Shown: piece after piece, positions 2,795-49,231 of the stretch
How positions within the stretch are numbered: position 1 is the first letter of the stretch
How the letters are laid out: the number at the start of each line of letters is the position of its first letter
Assembly (NCBI GenBank): GCA_020720045.1
Contig: DYPH01000007.1
Coordinates: 1 to 64,000 of the forward strand
Direction: 5' to 3'
Length of the DNA: 64,000 nucleotides
DNA from: Sorangium cellulosum
GTDB lineage: Bacteria > Myxococcota_A > Polyangia > Polyangiales > Polyangiaceae
The notes under the pieces: model-generated
The model's database searches: none
Told to the model about the DNA's origin: nothing
The model's input: the letters and a program-made list of their open reading frames with translations, nothing else
Translations under genes and position numbers: made by a program

Positions 2795-3595
2795 GTGACT
2801 CAACCTCCCGTACCCCCTTTCCCTGAGACGACCTCTCCCGAGGTGGCTGTTCTTGCGCCTTCCCCACGGCCGCCAAAAGCGGCCGCCAAGCGCGAGCGGA
2901 CCTGCGTCGGCTGCGGTGACGCCGTCGATCTCGACGAAGGCGTTCCTGATCCTGGCGTTACGTCAGGGCCGGAGCAACGAGGGGGGGCAACGTTGCTTCG
3001 GGTCGCCCTTGCCGAGGCGGATGGCGCGTGGACCTGCGTGGTCGATGCGCCGGCGAATCTCGGCGGGCGTGGCGCTTGGGTGCATGCTGCACCGAAGTGT
3101 CTGCAGCGTGCCTGCAAGGGGGGCTTTTCAAAGGCTCTCAAGACGAAGGTGGATCTCCCGCTCGCGACGCTCGTCGAAGCGGGACAATTGGCCGCTGAGC
3201 GACGCATGGAAGGGCTCCTTGCGTCGGCACGGCGGGGGCGCCTCGCGGCATTCGGGCACGATGCCTGCCGCGAGCTGCTCGCAAAAGAACCGGACGCGCT
3301 CCTCGTGGTCGCGACCGATGCGGGGGCCATCGCGCGCTCCCGCGAAGTCGAAGATGCCGTCCGTCTCGGGCGTGCCGTCGCGTGGGCAACCAAGCGACGA
3401 CTCGGTGTCTTTTTTGGAAAAGAAGAAGTCGCTCTCGTGGCCATTGCAGATCCACGCATGAGTGTGGCAATCGTCCGTGCCGTCGCGGACAGGGCGGCGT
3501 TCGCCGCGTGCTCGGTGGAGCCCAAAGGGTCGGAAACAACGACCAAATCCACCAAGGTCGAAGGCGAAGCATGCAGGTCTCCGGAGGTTCGATGA
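2795..3595 (+). CDS. YlxR (RnpM)-L7Ae-like fusion RNA-binding protein
   Basis: This 266-residue protein starts at GTG 2795 and joins two small families that are separate genes in Firmicutes. Residues about 33-115 form a YlxR/DUF448 domain with RTCVGC (C37, C40) and GGRGAWVHAAPKCLQRACKGG split by the typical glycine-rich turn. Residues about 140-235 resemble the L7Ae/L30e fold (YlxQ), with AFGHDACRELLAKEPDALLV and VATDAG. YlxR of Bacillus subtilis has been linked to RNase P, and L7Ae proteins bind kink-turn RNA, so an RNA-binding role is likely but inferred. The Pro-rich first 30 residues look disordered. The stop TGA overlaps the infB start (ATGA), implying translational coupling. The same fusion may occur in other Deltaproteobacteria-like lineages. 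Confidence 0.85.
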   Translation: MTQPPVPPFPETTSPEVAVLAPSPRPPKAAAKRERTCVGCGDAVDLDEGVPDPGVTSGPEQRGGATLLRVALAEADGAWTCVVDAPANLGGRGAWVHAAPKCLQRACKGGFSKALKTKVDLPLATLVEAGQLAAERRMEGLLASARRGRLAAFGHDACRELLAKEPDALLVVATDAGAIARSREVEDAVRLGRAVAWATKRRLGVFFGKEEVALVAIADPRMSVAIVRAVADRAAFAACSVEPKGSETTTKSTKVEGEACRSPEVR

Positions 3596-6576
3596 ACAAG
3601 CAACGCGTGTACGAAGTGGCCAAGGCGCTGAATCTCGAACCGAAGGTGGTGGTCACCCATTTCCAGTCGCTTGGGTTCTCCGACGTCAAGAACCACATGA
3701 GCTCGGTTGACGGCGACGCCGTGGACCGTTTGAAGCGCCACCTCGAGAAGCCGAAGACGGAAGTCGTTGAAGAACGAATCCGTCCGACGGTGGTGAAGCG
3801 CCGCCCCGTGGCCAAGCCGGCTGGCGAATCGTCGCCGCAACTCCCGACCGCGGGCGGCTCCGTGGCCGATCTCGCGGCCGCAGCGGCGGCCCCCGCAGCT
3901 CCGCCGTCGGTAAAGGCGGTTGAAGCGCGGCCGAGCAGCCGGGCGGTCCTTGAGCCGGCCCGTGCGGAAGTTCCGGTCGCCCCGCGCAGCCGTAAATCGA
4001 TCCCCGAGGCGGCGCCGAGTGGCGACGCATCGAAGGTCGCGGCCTCGAGCGACGTCGCGGCTGTCGCAGCCCCTTCCGTCAAGGTGGTCGAAGCGGCCGC
4101 CAAGTCGTCCCCGAAGTCTTCGCCCCGCATCGAGGTCCCCTCGGCGCCGGCGTCGGTACCGAAGGACCGCAAGAGCGCAAAGAACGTGGCGGCCGCCGAG
4201 CAGCCGGTCGTCGCCGTCGCCCCGATTTCGCGCCCTTCGAAGCCCAAGCTTGAGCTCCCGAAGGTCGTCGAGCCGGCGATGGACGCCGACGACGAGCCGA
4301 CGTCGATGGCGGCCGCCATTGAAGCGACCCCCTCGCTGCTCGACCCGCCGAAATCGGCTCCGGCGATTCCGCCGCCGCCCCCCCCCGCTGAGGAGATGGT
4401 TACCGTGAAGACGACGGTTCCGTCGACGCCCCGCCCGGCCGAAGCGCCCCGCGCGGCCGCCCCCGCCACCCAAGCCCCCGGCACCGACGTTGGCGCCTCC
4501 CAGCGTCCGAAGACCGGTATCGAATACTGGTCCGGCTGGACCGACCGTCCCGCCCCGTCGGCAAACCGAACCGCCATCGGCGGTGGTGCTGCCAGCACGA
4601 TGGCCCGCCGGAGCGAGTACAATCCGCGCGGCGCCGCCGTCGGACCTGCTGCTCGCCCTGCCGGTCTCCGCCCCGGTCAACCGATGATGAACCGCGGCCC
4701 GATGGGTCGCGGCGGCCCGATGGGGCGTGGCGGTCCGATGGGCCGTGGCATGATGAACATGCCGCGCGTTCGTGGTCCGGTCACCACCCAGGAGATGAGC
4801 GCCCACAAGAAGGTCATTCGCATCGAAGAGAACATCACTCTTCAGTCGATGGCCGGGAAGATGAGCCTCAAGGCGACCGAGCTTCTGATGAAGCTCCTGT
4901 CGATGGGCATGACCGGCGTCCACATCAACTCCACCCTCGACGCCGACACGGCGAAGATTCTTGCCAGCGAATTCGGCTGGGAAGTCGAGGACGTGGCGGT
5001 CAGCGAAGACGACATCATCGCGCAGGCGGTCGGTGTCGCCACCGTGCCGGAAACGACCGACGATGGCCGCGTCGCACGCGCGCCGGTCGTGACCGTCATG
5101 GGTCACGTCGACCACGGCAAGACGAGCCTCCTCGACAAGATCCGCAAGGCGAACGTCGCAAGCGGCGAAGCCGGCGGTATCACTCAGCATATCGGCGCTT
5201 ACAAGGTGCAGACGCCGAGCGGCACGATCGTCTTCCTCGACACCCCGGGCCACGAAGCCTTCACGGCGATGCGTGCCCGCGGCGCCGGCGTCACCGACAT
5301 CGTGATTCTCGTCGTCGCTGCCGACGACGGCGTGATGCCGCAGACCAAAGAAGCGGTTTCCCACGCCAAAGCGGCGAAGGTTCCGATCATCGTTGCCGTC
5401 AACAAGATCGACAAGCCGGAAGCCGACCTCGAACGCGTCAAGCGCGAACTCGTCGAACTCGGCCTCCAGCCGGAAGAGTGGGGCGGCGACACGATCTTCG
5501 TGCCGGTCTCCGCAAAGAGCGGCGAAGGCATCAGCCAGCTCCTTGAGATGGTCTGGCTTCAGTCGGAAGTCCTCGATCTCAAAGCGAATCCCGATGGTCC
5601 CGGCGTCGGTACCGTCATCGAAGCGCTCCTCGATCGCGGCCGTGGCCCGGTCGCCCGTATCCTCGTCCAGGACGGCACGATCAAGGTCGGCGACTTCGTC
5701 CTCGCCGGCTCCGGCTTCGGCAAGGTCCGCGCGATGACGAACGAGCACGGCAAGCCGGTTCACACGGCAGGCCCTGCCACCCCCGTCGAGGTCCTCGGTC
5801 TCTCCGACGTCCCCGGCGCTGGTGACCAGGTTCACGTCGTCAAGGACATCAAGAAGGCTCAGGAAATCGCCGAGTCCCGCAAGGGCCGCATGGCGAAGTC
5901 CCTCATCCCCGGCACCGCGAAGGTCTCCCTCGAAGAGCTCTCCAAGCGGATCAACGCGGACGAGCAACTTGAACTCCGCGTCATCCTCAAGGGGGACGTG
6001 CAGGGCTCCGTCGAAGCCGTCGTCGAGGCGCTTACCAAGCTCACCGGACCCAAGGTCAAGCTCACCGTCGTCCACGCGGGCGTCGGCGCGATCACCGAGG
6101 GCGACGTCAACCTCGCCATCGCCGCCCGGTCGATCATCATCGGCTTCAACGTGCGCCCCGCCGGCAAGGCGAACGCGCTCGCCGACGAGAACAAGATCGA
6201 AATCCGTCTCTACTCGATCATCTACAACGCGGTCGACGACGTGAAGGGGGCCATGGAAGGCCTCCTCCCGGCGACGCTCGTCGAGAAGGTCATCGGCAAG
6301 GCGGAACTCCGTCAGCTCTTCAAGATCAAGGGGGTCGTCGTTGCCGGCTCCATGATCACCCAGGGCGTCGTCAAACGTTCGGCGAACATTCGCGTCATTC
6401 GCGACAACGTCGTCCTCCACGATGGCAAGCTCGACCAGCTCAAGCGCTTCAAGGAAGACGTCAAAGAAGTCGCCGAAGGCTACGAGTGCGGTATCAGCAT
6501 CCAGAACTTCAGTGAACTCAAAGAACTCGACATCCTCGAGTGCTACGAAGTCGAAGAAGTCAAGCAGCGCCTCTGA
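3592..6576 (+). CDS. infB: Translation initiation factor IF-2
   Basis: IF-2 is the GTPase that delivers initiator tRNA to the ribosome. The start ATG 3592 follows GGAGG at 3583-3587 and overlaps the upstream stop, giving 994 residues. Residues 1-55 are an IF2_N domain, followed by a long Ala/Pro/Lys-rich linker to about 360 and a Gly-Met-Arg repeat (GPMGRG units) at about 365-392. A second IF2_N-like domain lies at about 400-455. The G domain has GHVDHGKT (504-511), DTPGH (550-554), NKID (604-607) and SAKSGEG near 640. Domains II, III and IV follow to the end. The long linker makes it larger than E. coli IF-2 (890 residues), as is usual in myxobacteria. A strong terminator follows at 6651, so this is the last gene of the operon. 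Confidence 0.97.
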
Positions 6577-6650
6577 GCGACTTGTTCCTCGATCCGCGCT
6601 AGCGGGCGAGGACGGACTACCTGACCGGATCCGGCGAAAGCCGGTGACGA

Positions 6651-6697
6651 GAAAACGGCGGGCCTTCGAAAGAGGGGCCGCCGTTTCTCGTTTGTTT
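6651..6697 (+). terminator. Intrinsic terminator after infB
   Basis: GAAAACGGCGGGCC (6651-6664) pairs with GGCCGCCGTTTCTC (6675-6688) with one bulged G, followed by a T-rich stretch. It ends the rimP-infB unit and shows that the downstream lipoprotein is separately transcribed. Confidence 0.8.
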
Positions 6698-6772
6698 GGC
6701 GAGCGGGCGTTGGCGACGGCGGTTGCAGGAATCGCACTTTGCGGACGCGCGTTCGGGATAGCTTTCTCCGCC

Positions 6773-8395
6773 ATGCGCCTTTCGCCCCTCTTCGTCGCCC
6801 CCTTCTTTGCCCTGGCCGCGTGCAGCGCTCCCGCTCCGCTTCCGCCGTCGGCGACCGTTGCGCCGAGCACGCCGGCTGGAGGAGTTGCGGCCCCTTCGCC
6901 GCCGACGCTTGCGCCACCAAACACTCCGAATTCGCAGAGGATTGGCGTTGTTTTAACCATCCCGGAGACCCAAGGGGTCGTCATCGACCACGGGCGCACG
7001 AGTTCGCTCCTTCGACGCGGCGCCGATGGGCGCGTCCAGTTCGCCCACGCGTTCCTCCGCGCCACCGGGCCGAAGGCCGGCGATGGCGACTTTTCCACAG
7101 ATATTCACGTCGCTGGCGGCCCGTACACGCTCGACTATTTGCTCGGTCCTGCGATCAACTCGGAGGCCTTCTTCTGGAATGACCCCTTTGGCGCGAAGCC
7201 GACGATGACCCATTGGGACAACGTCGAACGTGTCGGTGAGTTTGCGTCGATCTATGAGTGGTCTGGCGACACGTGGGGGAAAAAATCGGGTGAATCAGGC
7301 TTCTTAGACGTCGTGGACCGCGCCGGCGCCGCACTTACCATTGAAGTCTCCACGCCGAACGAAGCGCGCCGCTGCTCGCCCCTCGAAGACCGCGGGTGCA
7401 AGGTCGGACGCCCGAAGGCGGCGACCTTCGTCGGGCGCAACGCGGCCGCCCTTGCCGCCCTGCCGGAGATGCCCAAAGGCTTCTGCCCGGACGGCATCGC
7501 CGCCAACGCGCGTGGCGACCTGTATGTCTCGGGAGCGACCTGCGAGGACGGCACGCCTGTCGTCGCCTACTACCTGCCTGGTGCCACGAAGGGGACGGTC
7601 ACTCCCGTCGAAGGCCTCGATGGATGGTCGAAATTACTCGCACTTTCGCCGGACGGGACGCTCGCGATCGGCGCCCAAGCCGATCTGTTCCTGGTCACCA
7701 AAGGGCAGGTCTCACGGGTGACTCCGCCGCTCGGTGCTACGACGGTCGCGCCTTCCCCGAGCGTCTTCGAGGCGCTCGGCTTCGCCAGCGATGGGGCGCT
7801 CTGGGGGGCGCTTCGAAGGACGGGGACCGAGCATGCCCGCGTGTCGGTGGTCCGTCGTAGCTTCGGAGGCTCGCCGAGCGAATGGACAGCAATTCCCGGC
7901 CCTTGGGACGATTCGCGCCTGGAGTGCATGGTCCTCGCTTTCGAGCTTTCAGATGCCAAAGATCCCGTGTTTCTTGCGGAAAACTGTGTTTCGCCCCGCA
8001 GCGACAAAGAGGACGCCCTTTGGGGATCGGTCGACCTTCTCCGAAACACCGCGCGCTCTTCGCCGCAAGTGCTGCCGGGCGTCTGCGCGCAAGTCGTCTC
8101 CTACGAGGCGGCTCGCCCGCGGACGAGGGTGACAGATGCCCAGAAGTGCCCGGAAACGTTCGCAACGGTTGTCCTACCGGCCGACCAGGTGGCGACGGCG
8201 CGGACGCTCCTCGCCAAGGCGCCGAAAAGCACCGACGGCCTTGAGATCGGGCCGGCTCGCCTGGCAGGAAAGGAAGAAATGGTCGTTCAGGGGCCCGTGT
8301 ATCGCCATTCCCCCAAAGAGGCGAATGCGATTCAAAAACTCCTCGCACGCGCCGGTGCTTCGCTCGTTTGTGGCATTGCTATGCCGGCGAAATAG
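6773..8395 (+). CDS. Secreted lipoprotein, paralog of the 9548 gene
   Basis: This 540-residue protein begins with a lipoprotein signal ending in LAAC (C17), followed by a Pro/Ala-rich tether to about residue 50. The ATG at 6773 is chosen because it opens the signal peptide; the frame is open far upstream but overlaps infB and its terminator. It shares the whole body plan with the product at 9548-11152: HGR...RGADG near the N-terminus, FCPDGIAANARGDLYVSG in the middle, CPETFATVVLPADQ, and LVCGIAMPAK at the end. The repeated Gly-Asp-Leu-Tyr-Val-type strands suggest a beta-propeller-like fold, which is inference. I do not recognise a named family. It converges on a five-heme cytochrome gene with 3 bp between the stops. 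Confidence 0.8.
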   Translation: MRLSPLFVAPFFALAACSAPAPLPPSATVAPSTPAGGVAAPSPPTLAPPNTPNSQRIGVVLTIPETQGVVIDHGRTSSLLRRGADGRVQFAHAFLRATGPKAGDGDFSTDIHVAGGPYTLDYLLGPAINSEAFFWNDPFGAKPTMTHWDNVERVGEFASIYEWSGDTWGKKSGESGFLDVVDRAGAALTIEVSTPNEARRCSPLEDRGCKVGRPKAATFVGRNAAALAALPEMPKGFCPDGIAANARGDLYVSGATCEDGTPVVAYYLPGATKGTVTPVEGLDGWSKLLALSPDGTLAIGAQADLFLVTKGQVSRVTPPLGATTVAPSPSVFEALGFASDGALWGALRRTGTEHARVSVVRRSFGGSPSEWTAIPGPWDDSRLECMVLAFELSDAKDPVFLAENCVSPRSDKEDALWGSVDLLRNTARSSPQVLPGVCAQVVSYEAARPRTRVTDAQKCPETFATVVLPADQVATARTLLAKAPKSTDGLEIGPARLAGKEEMVVQGPVYRHSPKEANAIQKLLARAGASLVCGIAMPAK

Positions 8396-8398
8396 CGA

Positions 8399-9496
8399 CT
8401 AGCGGACGCCACGGGCGAGGACGGTACTGCCAAAGAGGGCGACCGGGATCCGACCGTGGGCGTCGGTGCGGCTCGCCGCCCGCTCGTAGGTGACTTGCCA
8501 TTCCACGGGCCGCGGGCTCTCTTCGGTGAACGTGACCGGCGCTGCCTGAAGGCGCGTGTCGGCGGCGAGCACGCGCAAGCTCCCATTGGCGCTTGTACGA
8601 TCCTCCCAGGCGCGCCCAAGCGGGATTTTGCGAGTTTTTTCGCCTGTCTTCAGCGTCAGTACGAGCCGCCGGAACAGATCGCCGGTGGGGAAGGAATGGC
8701 CGACGCCGCGACTGGTAAGTGTGACGGTCACGTGCTCGCCGGTGCGCGTTGTCGCGACGTCGAGGGCCCCCTTTAGCATCGTTTCATCGACGCTGAAGCG
8801 ATGGCTCCGATGGGGCGCTCCGCCGGGGCCCTCGATCTTTGGCATGTGGCAGTCATTGCAGGTTCCACCGATGCCGGAGCTCGCCGCCTCTGTAATCGTA
8901 GACTGCATCAAAAGCAGTTTTCCGCGACGGTCTGCATCGGGAAAACCGAATTCATGGCACCGCGCGCATGCCTTTTCAGTGGCAAAATCGGCGCTGGAGA
9001 CGAGGGCGTCATTGGCCCGATGGCCGTTGATGGCTGTTGGCGGAACCGTTTTCCGATCGGCGGACAAACGCGCCGCGTGGGGGACGGCGAGCACACCTGG
9101 GCCGTTGTGGGGGCTGTGACAGGTCACGCAGCCGACGCCCAGCGCCGCGCGATCGGCGGGGGGATCCTGCTTCGGGTCGGCCTCGGGGGCATGGCAGCCG
9201 CGGCAAAACGAAAGCGGTTCGCGGGCTAGGCTCGCCCGGAAGTCGCGATCGGCAAAGGCGTTCTTGTGCCCGGAAGTGCCCCATTCTGCAGCGATTTCCG
9301 AGTGGCACCCCTCGCAGGTGGCGTTCCTCGTGACCGGGTCGCGCGGAGACGCTGTTGTCGCCGGCTCCGGCATCGGCGGGGCGTGTTGGAGGGGGCGTGC
9401 CGGCATCGATAACGCGACGGACGCGGTGCCGAGCAGCGCAACGATTCCGGCAGGCGTCGCAAACGGGAAGGGGCGTCGTCTCCGGGCGGCGGTCAC
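8399..9496 (-). CDS. Exported pentaheme c-type cytochrome
   Basis: Five CXXCH heme-attachment motifs are visible in about 365 residues: CEGCH (61-65), CRGCH (98-102), CVTCH (123-127), CARCH (177-181) and CNDCH (213-217). The N-terminus TAARRRRPFPFA plus a hydrophobic stretch to about residue 33 is an export signal, consistent with periplasmic heme attachment. The spacing resembles the cytochrome c554-type multiheme families; the last 140 residues lack hemes and look beta-rich, with a conserved-looking GVGHSFPTGDLFRRLVL. I chose GTG 9496 because longer versions would run into the divergent gene at 9548; AGGAG lies only 2 nt upstream, so the start is uncertain. Electron transfer is likely; partner and substrate are unknown. 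It lies antiparallel between two paralogous lipoproteins. Confidence 0.85.
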   Translation of the reverse strand: MTAARRRRPFPFATPAGIVALLGTASVALSMPARPLQHAPPMPEPATTASPRDPVTRNATCEGCHSEIAAEWGTSGHKNAFADRDFRASLAREPLSFCRGCHAPEADPKQDPPADRAALGVGCVTCHSPHNGPGVLAVPHAARLSADRKTVPPTAINGHRANDALVSSADFATEKACARCHEFGFPDADRRGKLLLMQSTITEAASSGIGGTCNDCHMPKIEGPGGAPHRSHRFSVDETMLKGALDVATTRTGEHVTVTLTSRGVGHSFPTGDLFRRLVLTLKTGEKTRKIPLGRAWEDRTSANGSLRVLAADTRLQAAPVTFTEESPRPVEWQVTYERAASRTDAHGRIPVALFGSTVLARGVR

Positions 9497-9547
9497 CGCT
9501 CCTTTCTCGGTGGGCCGCGCCGCCGATGCAAGGTAGATCGCTCGCCC

Positions 9548-11152
9548 ATGCGTTCTTCGTTCGTGCTCGCCGCTTCGTCGCTTCTTGGCCTTCTCGCCGC
9601 GTGTGGCGCACCGCCGGCCCCAACCGGTCCGGTGTCGACGACGCCAAGCGCCCGTCCGTCGGCCTCGGCGGCCCCTTCTGTCGTCGTCGCGCCGAAGGCA
9701 CCGGAGCCGAAAATTGGCGTAATTGCAACCATTTCGGAGCAGGAAGGGGTCGACATCGACCACGGTCGTCCCGGCTCGGTCCTTACCCGTGGCGCCGATG
9801 GAAGCGTTCGCTTCGCGCACGGATTTCTCCGCGCCATCGCCCCCGCCGATGCCACGAAAGACTTCGTCGCCGAAAGCGTCGTCGCCGGCGCCCCCTACTC
9901 GCCGCTCTCCCTCAGTGCGGCGACGCTCGCCTGGGAAACCACGTTTTGGAATGCCCCTTTCGCCGCGCGCCCGCTCCTAACGCGTTGGGAGACGATTGAG
10001 CGCGTTGGCCAATTCGCCACCATTGCCGCTCTAGAAGGGGCGACCTGGAAGACGATCGGTACCGATATCGCCTACTTGTCCGTCGTTGAGTGCGCGGGGA
10101 CGGCGCTCACGATCCAGATTTCAACGCCGCGCCCGCTCGGCAATTGTTCCTTTGAAAATCCCGATTGCAAAATGGCGAAGGGGAAGCCGCCGGTATTCGT
10201 CGACGTTGCGACTCTTGCAGACCCGAAGAGCAAGGCTGTCGTCCCGGCGATCCCGAAGAATTTCTGCCCGGAAGGCCTCGTTGCCAACAAGCGCGGCGAT
10301 CTTTTTGTGACCGGGTACGACTGCGACCAGGATACTCCTCAATACGCCTATTACGCGCCGGGGGCGATGACGGCCACCGTCGTCGCATTGCCAGAAACTC
10401 GCGGAAATTCGAGCCTCGCGCTCACCGAATCCGGCACCCTCTATGTGGCCGCGAACGATCAGCTCCTCGCGGTCACCCCCGGCGCTGCGCCGCTTCCGGT
10501 GAAGGTTCCGACGCCGTCGGGCACGCTCTTTCACGCCATCGCCGTCGACCCCTCGGGTGCGCTTTGGGTTGCGACCCACGACGCTGAGGCCCCCGCGGGC
10601 GGGGTCTTTTCCCGGGCCGCCGCCCCGAACAGCCCGTTTGTCGCCATCGAAGGGCCGTGGAGTGCAAAGCATGCGCTCTGCACGGTTCTCGGCTTCGAGG
10701 TCTCCGATCCGAGCGATCCCGTGTTCCTCGGCCAGAACTGTTCAGTCACGAAACACGCCGTCGAGAATGGTGGAAACGGTACGATCGACATCCTGCGGAA
10801 GACGCTCCGCCCCGTGCCCCAGAAGCTCCCAAGCCTGCGCGAGCAAATCGCCGAATACGAAGGAAATCGTACGCGTACACCTGTGGAAGATGCTGCGAAG
10901 TGTCCGGAAAAATTGGCGACGGTGGTGATCCCCGTCGAAAAGAAAGCCGATGCTGAGGCCCTCGTGAAGAAGGCTAAAAAGACAGAAGAATTGGAAGTGA
11001 AAGCGGCGCGGATCGGCGGAAAACCGGCGTTGGCCGTCTTCTCCCAGTTCGATGCCGGAAACTACGCGCCGAAGGGGGCGAATGCCCTCAAGAAGCTCTT
11101 CGCGCCGACCGGCGCGACCCTTGTCTGCGGCGTCCCGGTACCGACCGAGTGA
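9548..11152 (+). CDS. Secreted lipoprotein, paralog of the 6773 gene
   Basis: The 534-residue product has a clear lipoprotein signal with lipobox LAAC (C19) and a short Pro/Ser/Ala-rich tether. Its body aligns end to end by eye with the 6773 gene: VDIDHGRPGSVLTRGADG, FCPEGLVANKRGDLFVTGYD, CPEKLATVVIPVEKKADA and a final GATLVCGVPVPTE. Shared cysteines (for example in NC..CK and CPE) suggest conserved disulfides outside the cytoplasm. The gene is divergent from the pentaheme cytochrome with 51 bp between starts, so a shared control region is plausible. It ends 63 bp before rbfA. Function unknown; a role near the cytochrome at the cell envelope is inferred from context only. Confidence 0.82.
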   Translation: MRSSFVLAASSLLGLLAACGAPPAPTGPVSTTPSARPSASAAPSVVVAPKAPEPKIGVIATISEQEGVDIDHGRPGSVLTRGADGSVRFAHGFLRAIAPADATKDFVAESVVAGAPYSPLSLSAATLAWETTFWNAPFAARPLLTRWETIERVGQFATIAALEGATWKTIGTDIAYLSVVECAGTALTIQISTPRPLGNCSFENPDCKMAKGKPPVFVDVATLADPKSKAVVPAIPKNFCPEGLVANKRGDLFVTGYDCDQDTPQYAYYAPGAMTATVVALPETRGNSSLALTESGTLYVAANDQLLAVTPGAAPLPVKVPTPSGTLFHAIAVDPSGALWVATHDAEAPAGGVFSRAAAPNSPFVAIEGPWSAKHALCTVLGFEVSDPSDPVFLGQNCSVTKHAVENGGNGTIDILRKTLRPVPQKLPSLREQIAEYEGNRTRTPVEDAAKCPEKLATVVIPVEKKADAEALVKKAKKTEELEVKAARIGGKPALAVFSQFDAGNYAPKGANALKKLFAPTGATLVCGVPVPTE

Positions 11153-11215: not shown

Positions 11216-11584
11216 GTGGCGAACGAGAACAAACGAAGCACGCGTGTGGCAGAACGAATGAAGGAGGAGCTCGCGCTTCTCCTCTTGAGCGAAGTATCGG
11301 ACCCGGCCCTACGCGGCGTGCTCGTGTCGGAGGTCCAGGTCACCGACGACTGCCGATTCGGTCGTATTTACTTTCGTTTCCTCGATGGGCTCGCCCCCGA
11401 GTCGCGACGTAAGGAGTGCCAGGACGGCTTCCGCCGTGCCTACGGCTTCCTCCGGCGCGAGCTCGGCACTCGCCTCCAACTCCGCGTCGCTCCCGATCTT
11501 CGCTTCCTCTACGACGAGGGGCAGGACGCCCGCCTCCGCGTCGACGCGCTCCTCGATGAAGTGAAACGCGACTTGAAAGGGTGA
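11216..11584 (+). CDS. rbfA: Ribosome-binding factor A
   Basis: This 122-residue protein is RbfA, a cold-shock-associated factor that binds the 30S subunit and helps mature 16S rRNA. Family features are the opening MANENKRSTRVAERMKEELA, the strand VSDPALRGVLVSEVQVTDD, and the KH-like end LRVAPDLRFLYDEGQDA. The start is GTG 11216, preceded by ACGAGG. Its normal place directly behind infB is interrupted here by two lipoproteins and a cytochrome gene, and truB does not follow. No dedicated promoter was identified. Confidence 0.92.
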   Translation: MANENKRSTRVAERMKEELALLLLSEVSDPALRGVLVSEVQVTDDCRFGRIYFRFLDGLAPESRRKECQDGFRRAYGFLRRELGTRLQLRVAPDLRFLYDEGQDARLRVDALLDEVKRDLKG

Positions 11585-11680
11585 TGTGCCCCTGGCACGT
11601 GCTGGCACAACGTCGGCGGCGCGCAAGTCCTTGTAATTCCTCGCGTGCTTGCTGGTACGGCCTGTGATGCGTCGATGGGC

Positions 11681-12757
11681 ATGCACGCATCCCGCAGCCT
11701 CGCCCCCCTGTTCCTTTCGATCCTTGCATCGCCGTTTTTCGCGCTCGCGTGTGGCGACGTCGTCACGGTCGAGGGGGGCGGCGATGCCGCGACGCCGGCC
11801 GACGCGCGCGCCGACGGCGATGCGCCCGACGCCACGCCGGGGACCGACGCCGACGTCCCCGACGGGCCGATCATCACATTCCCCCCCTGCGTGAGCGGGA
11901 CGATCGCCGACGAGGCGAAGTGGTGTTGCGATGCCAATTCGGACCCGAACTGCGGCGTCTCAAACGGCGGAGACGCGTGCGCCATCGACTGTCAGCGCGT
12001 CTGCTCCGCGCTCACGGGACCATCCATCGATGCCTTCAGCTGCTACCGCAGCGCCGACGGCGACGGCGGAACCACGATTCAGTACTTGTGCGGGGCGTGC
12101 GGCGTCGGGCGCATTCCGGAGGGGCTCGCCGCCTGCGCGGAGGGGGAGACCGTTGGCGAGCGCCTCGCGTTCCAGGCCTACTACGAAGCGGCGTCAGTAT
12201 TCGCCTTTCAAGACCTTGCCGCCACGCTCCGCACCGCAGTCGGGACGGGGGCGGCGGAGTGCGCCGGGCTCGCGGCGCGCGCTGAGAGAGCTGCTGGCGA
12301 AGAGACCGTGCATTCTGCATCGATGGCCGCCCTCGCCACACGGTACGGTGTCGTCGCGCCCCGGCCGGAACGCCCACGTGTGTCGAGGCGGGAAATGATC
12401 GAACTTGCACGTGAAAATGCCGTCGAGGGTTGTGTCCGCGAGACCTACGGAGCCCTCGTCGCGGCCCATCAGGCACGGTTTGCGACCCGGGCCGACCTGC
12501 GTCTCGCTTTCGCGGCGATCGCCGCCGACGAGGCCTCCCACGCGTCCCTCTCTTGGGATCTCCACGCCTATTTCTGCTCAGTCCTCGGCCCCTCCGTTGC
12601 GGCCGAGCTCGATGCCGCCCGCGAGGCAGCTTTCGAAGCATTTGCGACGGATGCCGCTAACCGAACGGAATCGTTTACCGATCGCGTGCTTGGAATCCCG
12701 CGGGGTCGTCGTGCGGTCGCGCTCGTCGCGGCGCTCCGTCAGTCACTTGCTGCGTGA
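11681..12757 (+). CDS. Lipoprotein with ferritin-like di-iron domain
   Basis: About 358 residues start with a signal ending in FFALAC (C24), an acceptable but atypical lipobox. An Asp/Ala/Pro-rich tether to about residue 62 and a Cys-rich segment (about 70-152, including WCCD and CGACG) follow. The C-terminal half is a four-helix ferritin-like domain with the expected ligand pattern: E169 (YYEAASVFAF), E208-x-x-H211 (EETVH), E249/E254, and E284-x-x-H287 (DEASH). A di-iron centre outside the cytoplasm is therefore likely; the activity (iron storage, oxidase or another) cannot be read from sequence. ATG 11675 is an equally good start. It is downstream of rbfA but unrelated to it. Confidence 0.8.
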   Translation: MHASRSLAPLFLSILASPFFALACGDVVTVEGGGDAATPADARADGDAPDATPGTDADVPDGPIITFPPCVSGTIADEAKWCCDANSDPNCGVSNGGDACAIDCQRVCSALTGPSIDAFSCYRSADGDGGTTIQYLCGACGVGRIPEGLAACAEGETVGERLAFQAYYEAASVFAFQDLAATLRTAVGTGAAECAGLAARAERAAGEETVHSASMAALATRYGVVAPRPERPRVSRREMIELARENAVEGCVRETYGALVAAHQARFATRADLRLAFAAIAADEASHASLSWDLHAYFCSVLGPSVAAELDAAREAAFEAFATDAANRTESFTDRVLGIPRGRRAVALVAALRQSLAA

Positions 12758-17778: not shown

Positions 17779-17826
17779 GCCCTCCGTTTGGGGGCACTCT
17801 ACCCCATAAGTGCACTGAGGAAGACC

Positions 17827-19092
17827 ATGAAAAAGAATCTGATCACGACCGCTCTCTTCGCTCTCCTCGCGACCCCGGTCATCATCAACTGTGGCGAAGT
17901 CAATAAGCTCAAGGGCGCGGCGAAGGGACTCAGCGATCAGATGCCCGATTGCCCGAGCGGCACCGACCCGGACGCCATCCTCGCTTACGACTTCCAGGCC
18001 GGCTTCGGCCTGAAGGCGGAACAAGCGACCAAGATTCGCGGCGCGATTGCCGCGTCCGCCGAGATCAACGGCTTCTACGCCGCCATTGATGGCGATTTGA
18101 AAACTGGTTGCGGAAATCTCGCTCATGACCTCGGCGTCACCGGCGACTTTTCGAACGGCGAAGAAGCGTGCAAAGCGGCGATTACCGCCATGAATGCCGC
18201 GAAGGCAAAGCTTGGCGCATCGATCAAGGTGACGCTTGTTGCCCAGCCGCCCCGCTGCGAAGCGAGCATGGATGTCATGGCCGATTGTGCCGCGAAATGC
18301 GACGTCCAGGCGACCGGCGGGTCGGCCAAGGTCGAGTGCGAGCCGGGCAAACTGTCCGGTTCTTGTGGCGCCCAGTGCAGCGGCTCCTGCCAGGTCGAAG
18401 CCGGCGCGAAGTGCGAAGGCACGTGCAAAGGGACCTGCGACGTCGCCATCAAGGGCAAGTGCGCCGGTACGTGCAACGGCAAGTGCGACGGAAAAGCGGG
18501 GAACGGCTCCTGCGCTGGCGTCTGCGAAGGCAAGTGCGAAGGCGGTTCCGTCGAAGCGGCCTGCTCCGGCAAGTGCGGCGGGACCTGCGAAATGAAGGCC
18601 TCGGCAAAGTGCGAAGGCACCTGCACCGGAAGCTGCTCGGCTGAGATGAAGGCGCCGAAGTGCACCGGCGAAGTCACCCCGCCGAAGGTCTCCGCCGAGT
18701 GCAACGCACAGTGCGATGCCCGCGTGTCGGCACGCGCCAAGTGCGAGCCCGGCAAGGTCTCCGTCGCCATCGTCGGCGCCACCGACGTGAACGGCGCCAA
18801 GCAGCTTCAGGCTGCCCTCGAGAAGAACCTGCCCGCCATCTTCAATGTCGCCATCGGCATGAAAGATCGCGCGCTTCACGTCGCCGGCTCGGGCAAGCTG
18901 ATCGTTGATGGCGCCAAGGCAAGCATCGAGAGCGCCGGTGCGGCGAGCGCAAAGCTCGGCCTCTGCTTCGGCTCGACGCTTAAGGGGGCCGTTTCCTCGG
19001 TCGCCAACATCAAGGCAGACATCGACGTTTCCGTCAACGTCTCCGCTTCGGCCTCTGCCTCGGGCTCCGCTTCCGGCTCTGCCGGCAAGTGA
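17827..19092 (+). CDS. Exported cysteine-repeat protein
   Basis: The 421-residue product starts at ATG 17827 behind GAGGA. Its N-terminus MKKNLITTALFALLATPVII is an export signal, and the following N-C could be a weak lipobox (C22). A helical-looking domain spans about 30-150. Then come six copies of a C-x3-C-x3-C module spaced by 7-8 residues, for example CEGTCKGTC and CAGTCNGKC. I count 31 cysteines in the protein. The C-terminal domain (about 310-395) has a VGATDVNGAKQLQAALEKN helix, and the chain ends in a Ser/Ala/Gly tail. The module recalls disulfide-rich or metal-binding surface proteins; I know of no defined function. A strong terminator follows, so it is monocistronic. Confidence 0.8.
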   Translation: MKKNLITTALFALLATPVIINCGEVNKLKGAAKGLSDQMPDCPSGTDPDAILAYDFQAGFGLKAEQATKIRGAIAASAEINGFYAAIDGDLKTGCGNLAHDLGVTGDFSNGEEACKAAITAMNAAKAKLGASIKVTLVAQPPRCEASMDVMADCAAKCDVQATGGSAKVECEPGKLSGSCGAQCSGSCQVEAGAKCEGTCKGTCDVAIKGKCAGTCNGKCDGKAGNGSCAGVCEGKCEGGSVEAACSGKCGGTCEMKASAKCEGTCTGSCSAEMKAPKCTGEVTPPKVSAECNAQCDARVSARAKCEPGKVSVAIVGATDVNGAKQLQAALEKNLPAIFNVAIGMKDRALHVAGSGKLIVDGAKASIESAGAASAKLGLCFGSTLKGAVSSVANIKADIDVSVNVSASASASGSASGSAGK

Positions 19093-48897: not shown

Positions 48898-48961
48898 ACC
48901 CGACGCGTCTACGAACTGCAACGGACCAGACCGCGCAGCGCGCCCTGCGGACGGACGCGTG

Positions 48962-49231
48962 GGCATCGAACTCCGGGCCGTCTCCCGCTTCGCGGACGGA
49001 CGGGTTGGCATCGAACTCCGCGCCGTCTCCCGCTTCGCGGACGGACGCGTGGGCATCGAACTCCGGGCCGTCTCCCGCTTCGCGGACGGACGGGTTGGCA
49101 TCGAACTCCGCGCCGTCTCCCGCTTCGCGGACGGACGCGTGGGCATCGAACTCCGCGCCGTCTCCCGCTTCGCGGACGGACGCGTGGGCATCGAACTCCG
49201 CGCCGTCTCCCGCTTCGCGGACGGACGCGTC
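48962..49231. repeat. Tandem repeat, six units of 45 bp
   Basis: Six head-to-tail units begin at 48962, 49007, 49052, 49097, 49142 and 49187, each starting GGCATCGAACTCCG, with partial copies at the ends. Units differ at only a few positions (CGCG/GGGCC, ACGCGT/ACGGGTT). Since 45 is a multiple of three and the unit has no stops in at least five frames, long spurious ORFs cross it. It lies between two divergent genes. A near-identical single copy is at 61835-61887. Confidence 0.9.

Follow-up and report, generated by a model that had tools for sequence, protein, structure and literature searches.

The window analysed here is a 64,000-nt stretch of a Sorangium cellulosum contig (DYPH01000007.1), in which three genes lie between infB and rbfA (Table 1). 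Two of them, lipoA and lipoB, encode lipoproteins that share 44% identity over nearly their full length, each with a signal peptide and lipobox (LAAC) at the N-terminus. Between them, on the minus strand and antiparallel to both, lies the gene for a c-type cytochrome with exactly five CXXCH motifs. For this gene a GTG start at 9496, preceded by a Shine-Dalgarno-like AAAGGAG, was preferred (8399-9496), and the longest open reading frame (8399-9820) was rejected as the gene extent because it runs into lipoB. The first-pass annotation of this DNA had described two paralogous lipoproteins with conserved cysteines flanking an antiparallel pentaheme cytochrome, a description that our gene calls and the two invariant cysteines reported below bear out.

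Table 1. Features of the lipoprotein-cytochrome trio and its flanks (window coordinates).
Feature	Position	Strand	Properties
lipoA, propeller-type lipoprotein	6773-8395	+	540 aa; lipobox LAAC; C-terminal two-cysteine domain; family profile E 6e-113
Pentaheme c-type cytochrome	8399-9496	-	365 aa; signal peptide; five CXXCH; C-terminal beta domain (Ig-like by homology); GTG start
Cytochrome/lipoB divergent spacer	9497-9547		51 bp; 50/51 identical in sister species
lipoB, propeller-type lipoprotein	9548-11152	+	534 aa; family profile E 3e-117; invariant C19 (lipobox), R152, G250, G312, G337, C452, C527
lipoB C-terminal domain	10820-11149	+	Predicted ferredoxin-like beta-alpha-beta-beta-alpha-beta; two invariant cysteines; mean pLDDT 78 (model)
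Terminator-like hairpin and T-rich tail 3' of infB	6646-6700	+	Kept in sister species
infB, left flank, outside module	3382-6576	+	
rbfA, right flank, outside module	11216-11584	+	

Transcription of the trio as a continuation of the infB transcript is unlikely, since infB is followed by a strong terminator-like hairpin (6646-6692, -35.2 kcal/mol, z -5.4). A promoter scan gave no signal above chance. The GC content of the trio is the same as that of its flanks, and an origin as a mobile island was rejected, as composition showed no jump and the window held no tRNA. What looked like a conserved TGA within the frame of a second rbfA proved to be simply the stop codon of that gene. Elsewhere in the window, an exported protein encoded 3' of rbfA (11645-12757) had a ferritin-like look without a Pfam match, and a lipoprotein-like open reading frame (17788-19092) carried a long run of CxGxC-type cysteine repeats. 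A 45-bp tandem repeat (48947-49230, 6.3 copies, 95% match) was read in frame close to the start of a minus-strand gene predicted to encode a membrane protein; the true start of this gene may be downstream of the repeat.

The rbfA locus was fetched from 28 other genomes of the order. In 26 of them infB lay within 1.5 kb of rbfA with no trio in between; the 4.6-kb insertion is thus a derived state, and the earlier observation that the trio interrupts infB-rbfA holds. The single comparison genome from the same genus (MAG JAAFHJ01, hereafter the sister) carried all three genes, arranged and oriented alike, divided between two contigs with the break inside lipoA. Relative to the sister, dN/dS was 0.13 for lipoB, 0.20 for lipoA (N-terminal 427 codons) and 0.12 for the cytochrome, compared to 0.02 for infB, showing that the trio genes are real and under purifying selection. 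The divergent spacer between the cytochrome and lipoB is nearly unchanged in the sister, whereas identity at fourfold sites is 72% in lipoB and 78% in the cytochrome, which points to a regulatory region shared by both genes. In the lipoprotein tree lipoA and lipoB were sisters (support of 100 for the four-row clade), indicating that the lipoprotein was duplicated in this lineage, with one copy on either side of the cytochrome. Two full-length lipoproteins flanking one cytochrome were seen in no other fetched locus; both the double lipoprotein and its infB-rbfA location are limited to one genus. We therefore regard infB-rbfA as merely the landing place of the trio, and the location may still be accidental.

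Direct homology searches with the lipoprotein returned relatives from the same genus only, but the resulting picture of a genus-restricted family was wrong, and was overturned by a profile built from the genes adjoining cytochrome homologs. Genes beside or overlapping relatives of the cytochrome encoded lipoproteins of similar length that aligned with lipoA and lipoB from end to end. Because identity between distant family members drops to 14-19%, the linkage between lipoprotein and cytochrome is visible by profile only. Seven residues were invariant in all 16 aligned lipoproteins: the lipobox cysteine, R152, G250, G312 and G337, and C452 and C527 in the C-terminal domain. The family profile matched beta-propellers, with designed and Ycf48-like proteins at E 1.7e-12 and weaker. 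No Pfam or NCBIfam model named the family, and the NHL repeat (PF01436) scored 16 bits against a gathering threshold of 20, a likeness of fold only. Ycf48, an assembly lipoprotein of photosystem II, is likewise a lipid-anchored beta-propeller and part of the propeller aligns (E 0.001), but the resemblance is one of general fold, and we know of no C-terminal two-cysteine domain in Ycf48. A full-length lipoprotein model made from three sequences was too poor for use (mean pLDDT 47). The better-modelled C-terminal 110 residues of lipoB gave no Foldseek match below E 0.001, and VIA-align returned generic ferredoxin-like folds only. The SPOR domain of CwlC (Z 4.0, rmsd 2.9, 63 aligned residues) was one of many tied folds in this comparison, and there was no Pfam SPOR match.

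The family models used gave the cytochrome no specific name. Exactly five CXXCH motifs were found in the aligned part of 72 of the 74 family matches, as in the window protein, alongside up to five further conserved histidines. Three of these lie at window positions 77, 232 and 267, and a fourth near 159-163 was placed differently by two alignments. A fifth, at position 204, is present in 78% of the family and is replaced by alanine in the window (alanine or glycine across the window and its sister). Such an arrangement would be expected if most hemes were bis-histidine ligated and formed an electron-carrying chain, a reading that the family as a whole supports. Heme-attachment genes were present in the genome from which the window is taken. 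A lipobox of their own was detected by motif in 37 of the 74 cytochromes and was absent from that of the window. The closest solved relative was the pentaheme c552 of Thermochromatium tepidum (PDB 5ze8), matched by the family profile in two stretches at E 1.4e-20, followed by the selenoprotein MccSep (E 2.5e-11). The cytochrome resembles c552 in the order of the two profile stretches, in its five hemes and in a C-terminal-domain motif, (G)HxxPTGxxFR; it is shorter, at 365 against 435 aa, and has a propeller lipoprotein as its neighbour. Pentaheme cytochromes with an Ig-like domain, ExtKL among them, have been discussed for cable bacteria as structurally akin to c552 (PMC11976967). With ExtKL of Geobacter, the cable-bacteria family and MccSep, the window cytochrome shares the combination of five hemes and a C-terminal domain that is Ig-like by homology, and the profile matches were weak but consistent. 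Its score of 29.3 bits against the ExtKL model (NF040886), for which the curated cut-off is 250, places it as kin to ExtKL rather than a member, and no ext-type cluster or porin gene was recognised beside the trio.

This kinship leads to an explanation that we consider unlikely, though conceivable, namely that the cytochrome is an enzyme that reduces an oxyanion such as selenite, tellurite or nitrite, the kind of role put forward for ExtKL, with the lipoprotein as an accessory subunit and the missing His204 opening a catalytic heme. The cytochrome falls in one wider family with ExtKL, whose model was matched by 11 of 12 members, and with MccSep; ExtKL has been linked to selenite reduction (PMC5877670), and related cable-bacteria pentaheme cytochromes have been listed as potentially catalytic (PMC11976967). 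The alanine at position 204, where 78% of the family has histidine, points the same way. However, most family members retain His204, so that a general catalytic role is not indicated, the nearby His229 could substitute for it, and the window protein itself scores far below the ExtKL cut-off.

Relatives of the cytochrome were present in 40 of 59 genomes. The first-pass annotation had pointed to a profile search for linkage between the lipoprotein family and multiheme cytochromes, and such linkage was found. In 60 loci taken by lipoprotein score alone, excluding loci previously found via the cytochrome, a five-CXXCH cytochrome of the same family adjoined the lipoprotein in 28, compared to none of 28 rbfA control loci and to about 0.1 expected by chance (estimated from cytochrome matches per genome). 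The first-pass annotation had also reasoned that lipoprotein homologs common without a cytochrome neighbour would speak against a unit, and here the outcome was mixed, as a cytochrome neighbour was absent from the remaining 32 loci, a few of them at contig ends. A further 27 cytochrome loci, many belonging to more distant members, lacked the lipoprotein; the genomes are mostly drafts, and contig ends hide some pairs. Including loci found via the cytochrome there were 50 adjacencies in total: on the same strand the cytochrome led in 31 and the lipoprotein in 12, and the others comprised four convergent and three divergent pairs, with the window and sister supplying two each of the convergent and divergent cases. 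Profile matches in loci L078 and L118 were at first weak and N-terminal, and were left out of the pair count. A four-base stop/start overlap occurred in 16 of the 43 same-strand rows, and the gap was within 30 nt in 26. Tree distances of the two families were correlated (r = 0.74, with 0 of 2,000 permutations as high), to which shared species history contributes. The window itself combines every feature by which we defined the pair: lipobox, propeller, C-terminal domain with two invariant cysteines, and an adjoining five-CXXCH profile cytochrome.

One might argue for an accidental neighbourhood of unrelated genes, given that roughly one in two homologs of each family has no such partner beside it. 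Twenty-eight adjacent loci against about 0.1 expected and none in the controls refute chance adjacency of the pair, and together with the gene overlaps and co-divergence make an accident extremely improbable. Recurrent adjacency, four-base overlaps, parallel divergence and the near-invariant shared spacer strongly support the cytochrome and lipoprotein as one functional unit, the two proteins very probably working together. The first-pass annotation had seen one functional unit in the trio; this stands for the cytochrome-lipoprotein pair, and does not stand for the trio, or its infB-rbfA site, as a natural unit. As the adjacency and overlaps indicate, the recurring unit is an older two-gene pair of the Polyangia, sited elsewhere in other genomes, and the trio is a genus-specific duplication within it.

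Of seven loci fetched from a second order of the class, four had the pair as well, the cytochrome in one of them being cut by a contig end; class and phylum searches at n = 150 gave no strong match among the sampled genomes from outside the class. The window's own genome holds a second pair (G000:C186:42610-45460; L070 8611-11461), lipoprotein followed by cytochrome with apparently 1 nt between them, and pieces of it also occur in the sister species. A multiheme cytochrome relative, 27% identical, was noted on Leptospira plasmids (L245, L. interrogans NZ_CP044516.1, 62083-63225), with no annotated lipoprotein adjoining. At another locus (L077, 9431-11677, plus strand) a cytochrome relative is followed by a different lipoprotein, carbohydrate- or heme-binding (CBM9/DOMON-like) in look, and the cytochrome family may therefore pair with other lipoproteins. 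The lipoprotein profile matched 86 of the 183 genomes of the order at E 1e-5, partial propeller matches among them. With about half of the lipoproteins lacking a cytochrome neighbour, and several subclades of the tree lacking one entirely, the family is wider than the pair, and the lipoprotein must have other roles or partners. Clades without an adjoining cytochrome, mostly from one genus (g14; loci L172-L174, L177, L181-L185, L189, L191, L194, L204, L207, L208 and L212), suggest another role or partner there.

Extracellular electron transfer or redox sensing, the functions suggested for the trio by the first-pass annotation, were not supported; no gene for a porin or a sensor domain was recognised beside it. 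As a conduit across the outer membrane to an acceptor outside the cell, the pair would be small, with five hemes in 365 aa; no porin gene was recognised among the immediate neighbours of the trio; and the bacteria that carry it live mostly in soil and have no known capacity for mineral respiration. We consider such a conduit quite unlikely, even though the family matched MtrC/OmcA-type and ExtKL-type models and NHL-repeat proteins occur in a multiheme cluster, Uet, of Gallionella (PMC10734462). In that cluster (Gallionella/Tenderia) multiheme cytochromes are encoded together with NHL-type propeller proteins, UetHI, but the cytochromes are undecaheme, tetraheme and triheme proteins accompanied by a porin, and a pentaheme-lipoprotein pair is not described (PMC10734462). 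Two lipoproteins to one cytochrome, with a shared spacer, would fit the input-output arrangement of a redox sensor in which the cytochrome would detect the potential and the propeller lipoproteins would pass the signal on; as the three proteins lack any sensor or signalling domain and no regulator adjoins the trio, this is very improbable.

Our preferred reading, in which we have about even confidence, is that the trio arose by expansion, in this genus alone, of an envelope redox module of the Polyangia that consists of two genes, one for an exported c552/ExtKL-like pentaheme cytochrome and one for a beta-propeller lipoprotein dedicated to it. The cytochrome is multiheme, its histidines are mostly paired and no substrate domain was recognised in it, so that it is best read as an electron carrier. 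The lipoprotein, a lipid-anchored propeller that in relatives is apparently co-transcribed with the cytochrome in overlapping frames, most likely serves to anchor, dock or assemble that cytochrome within the envelope. Its lipid would tether it in a membrane, judging from the lipobox most likely the outer membrane. Its propeller and C-terminal domain would dock the cytochrome or assist in its assembly, so that the cytochrome stands between an electron donor in the periplasm and an acceptor. The lipoprotein gene was duplicated in this genus, giving the cytochrome a divergent copy on one side, with which it shares a regulatory spacer, and a convergent copy on the other, and a single cytochrome may serve two alternative partners. 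Loss of the histidine at position 204, usually conserved, could also leave one of the hemes in this genus accessible to a ligand. More speculatively, and on balance unlikely, the Polyangia would possess an undescribed, porin-independent electron-transfer module of the envelope, in which a lipid-anchored propeller partners a pentaheme cytochrome, and in this genus the module would have evolved to include two partners as alternatives and one heme of open coordination. Our searches of open-access papers turned up no described system with this content, in keeping with the first-pass annotation. Little work has been done on the multiheme cytochromes of myxobacteria from soil. The recurring, often overlapping pair supplies this orphan cytochrome family with a definite partner that can be tested, and indicates a function to seek in a lipoprotein family that many Polyangia genomes encode.
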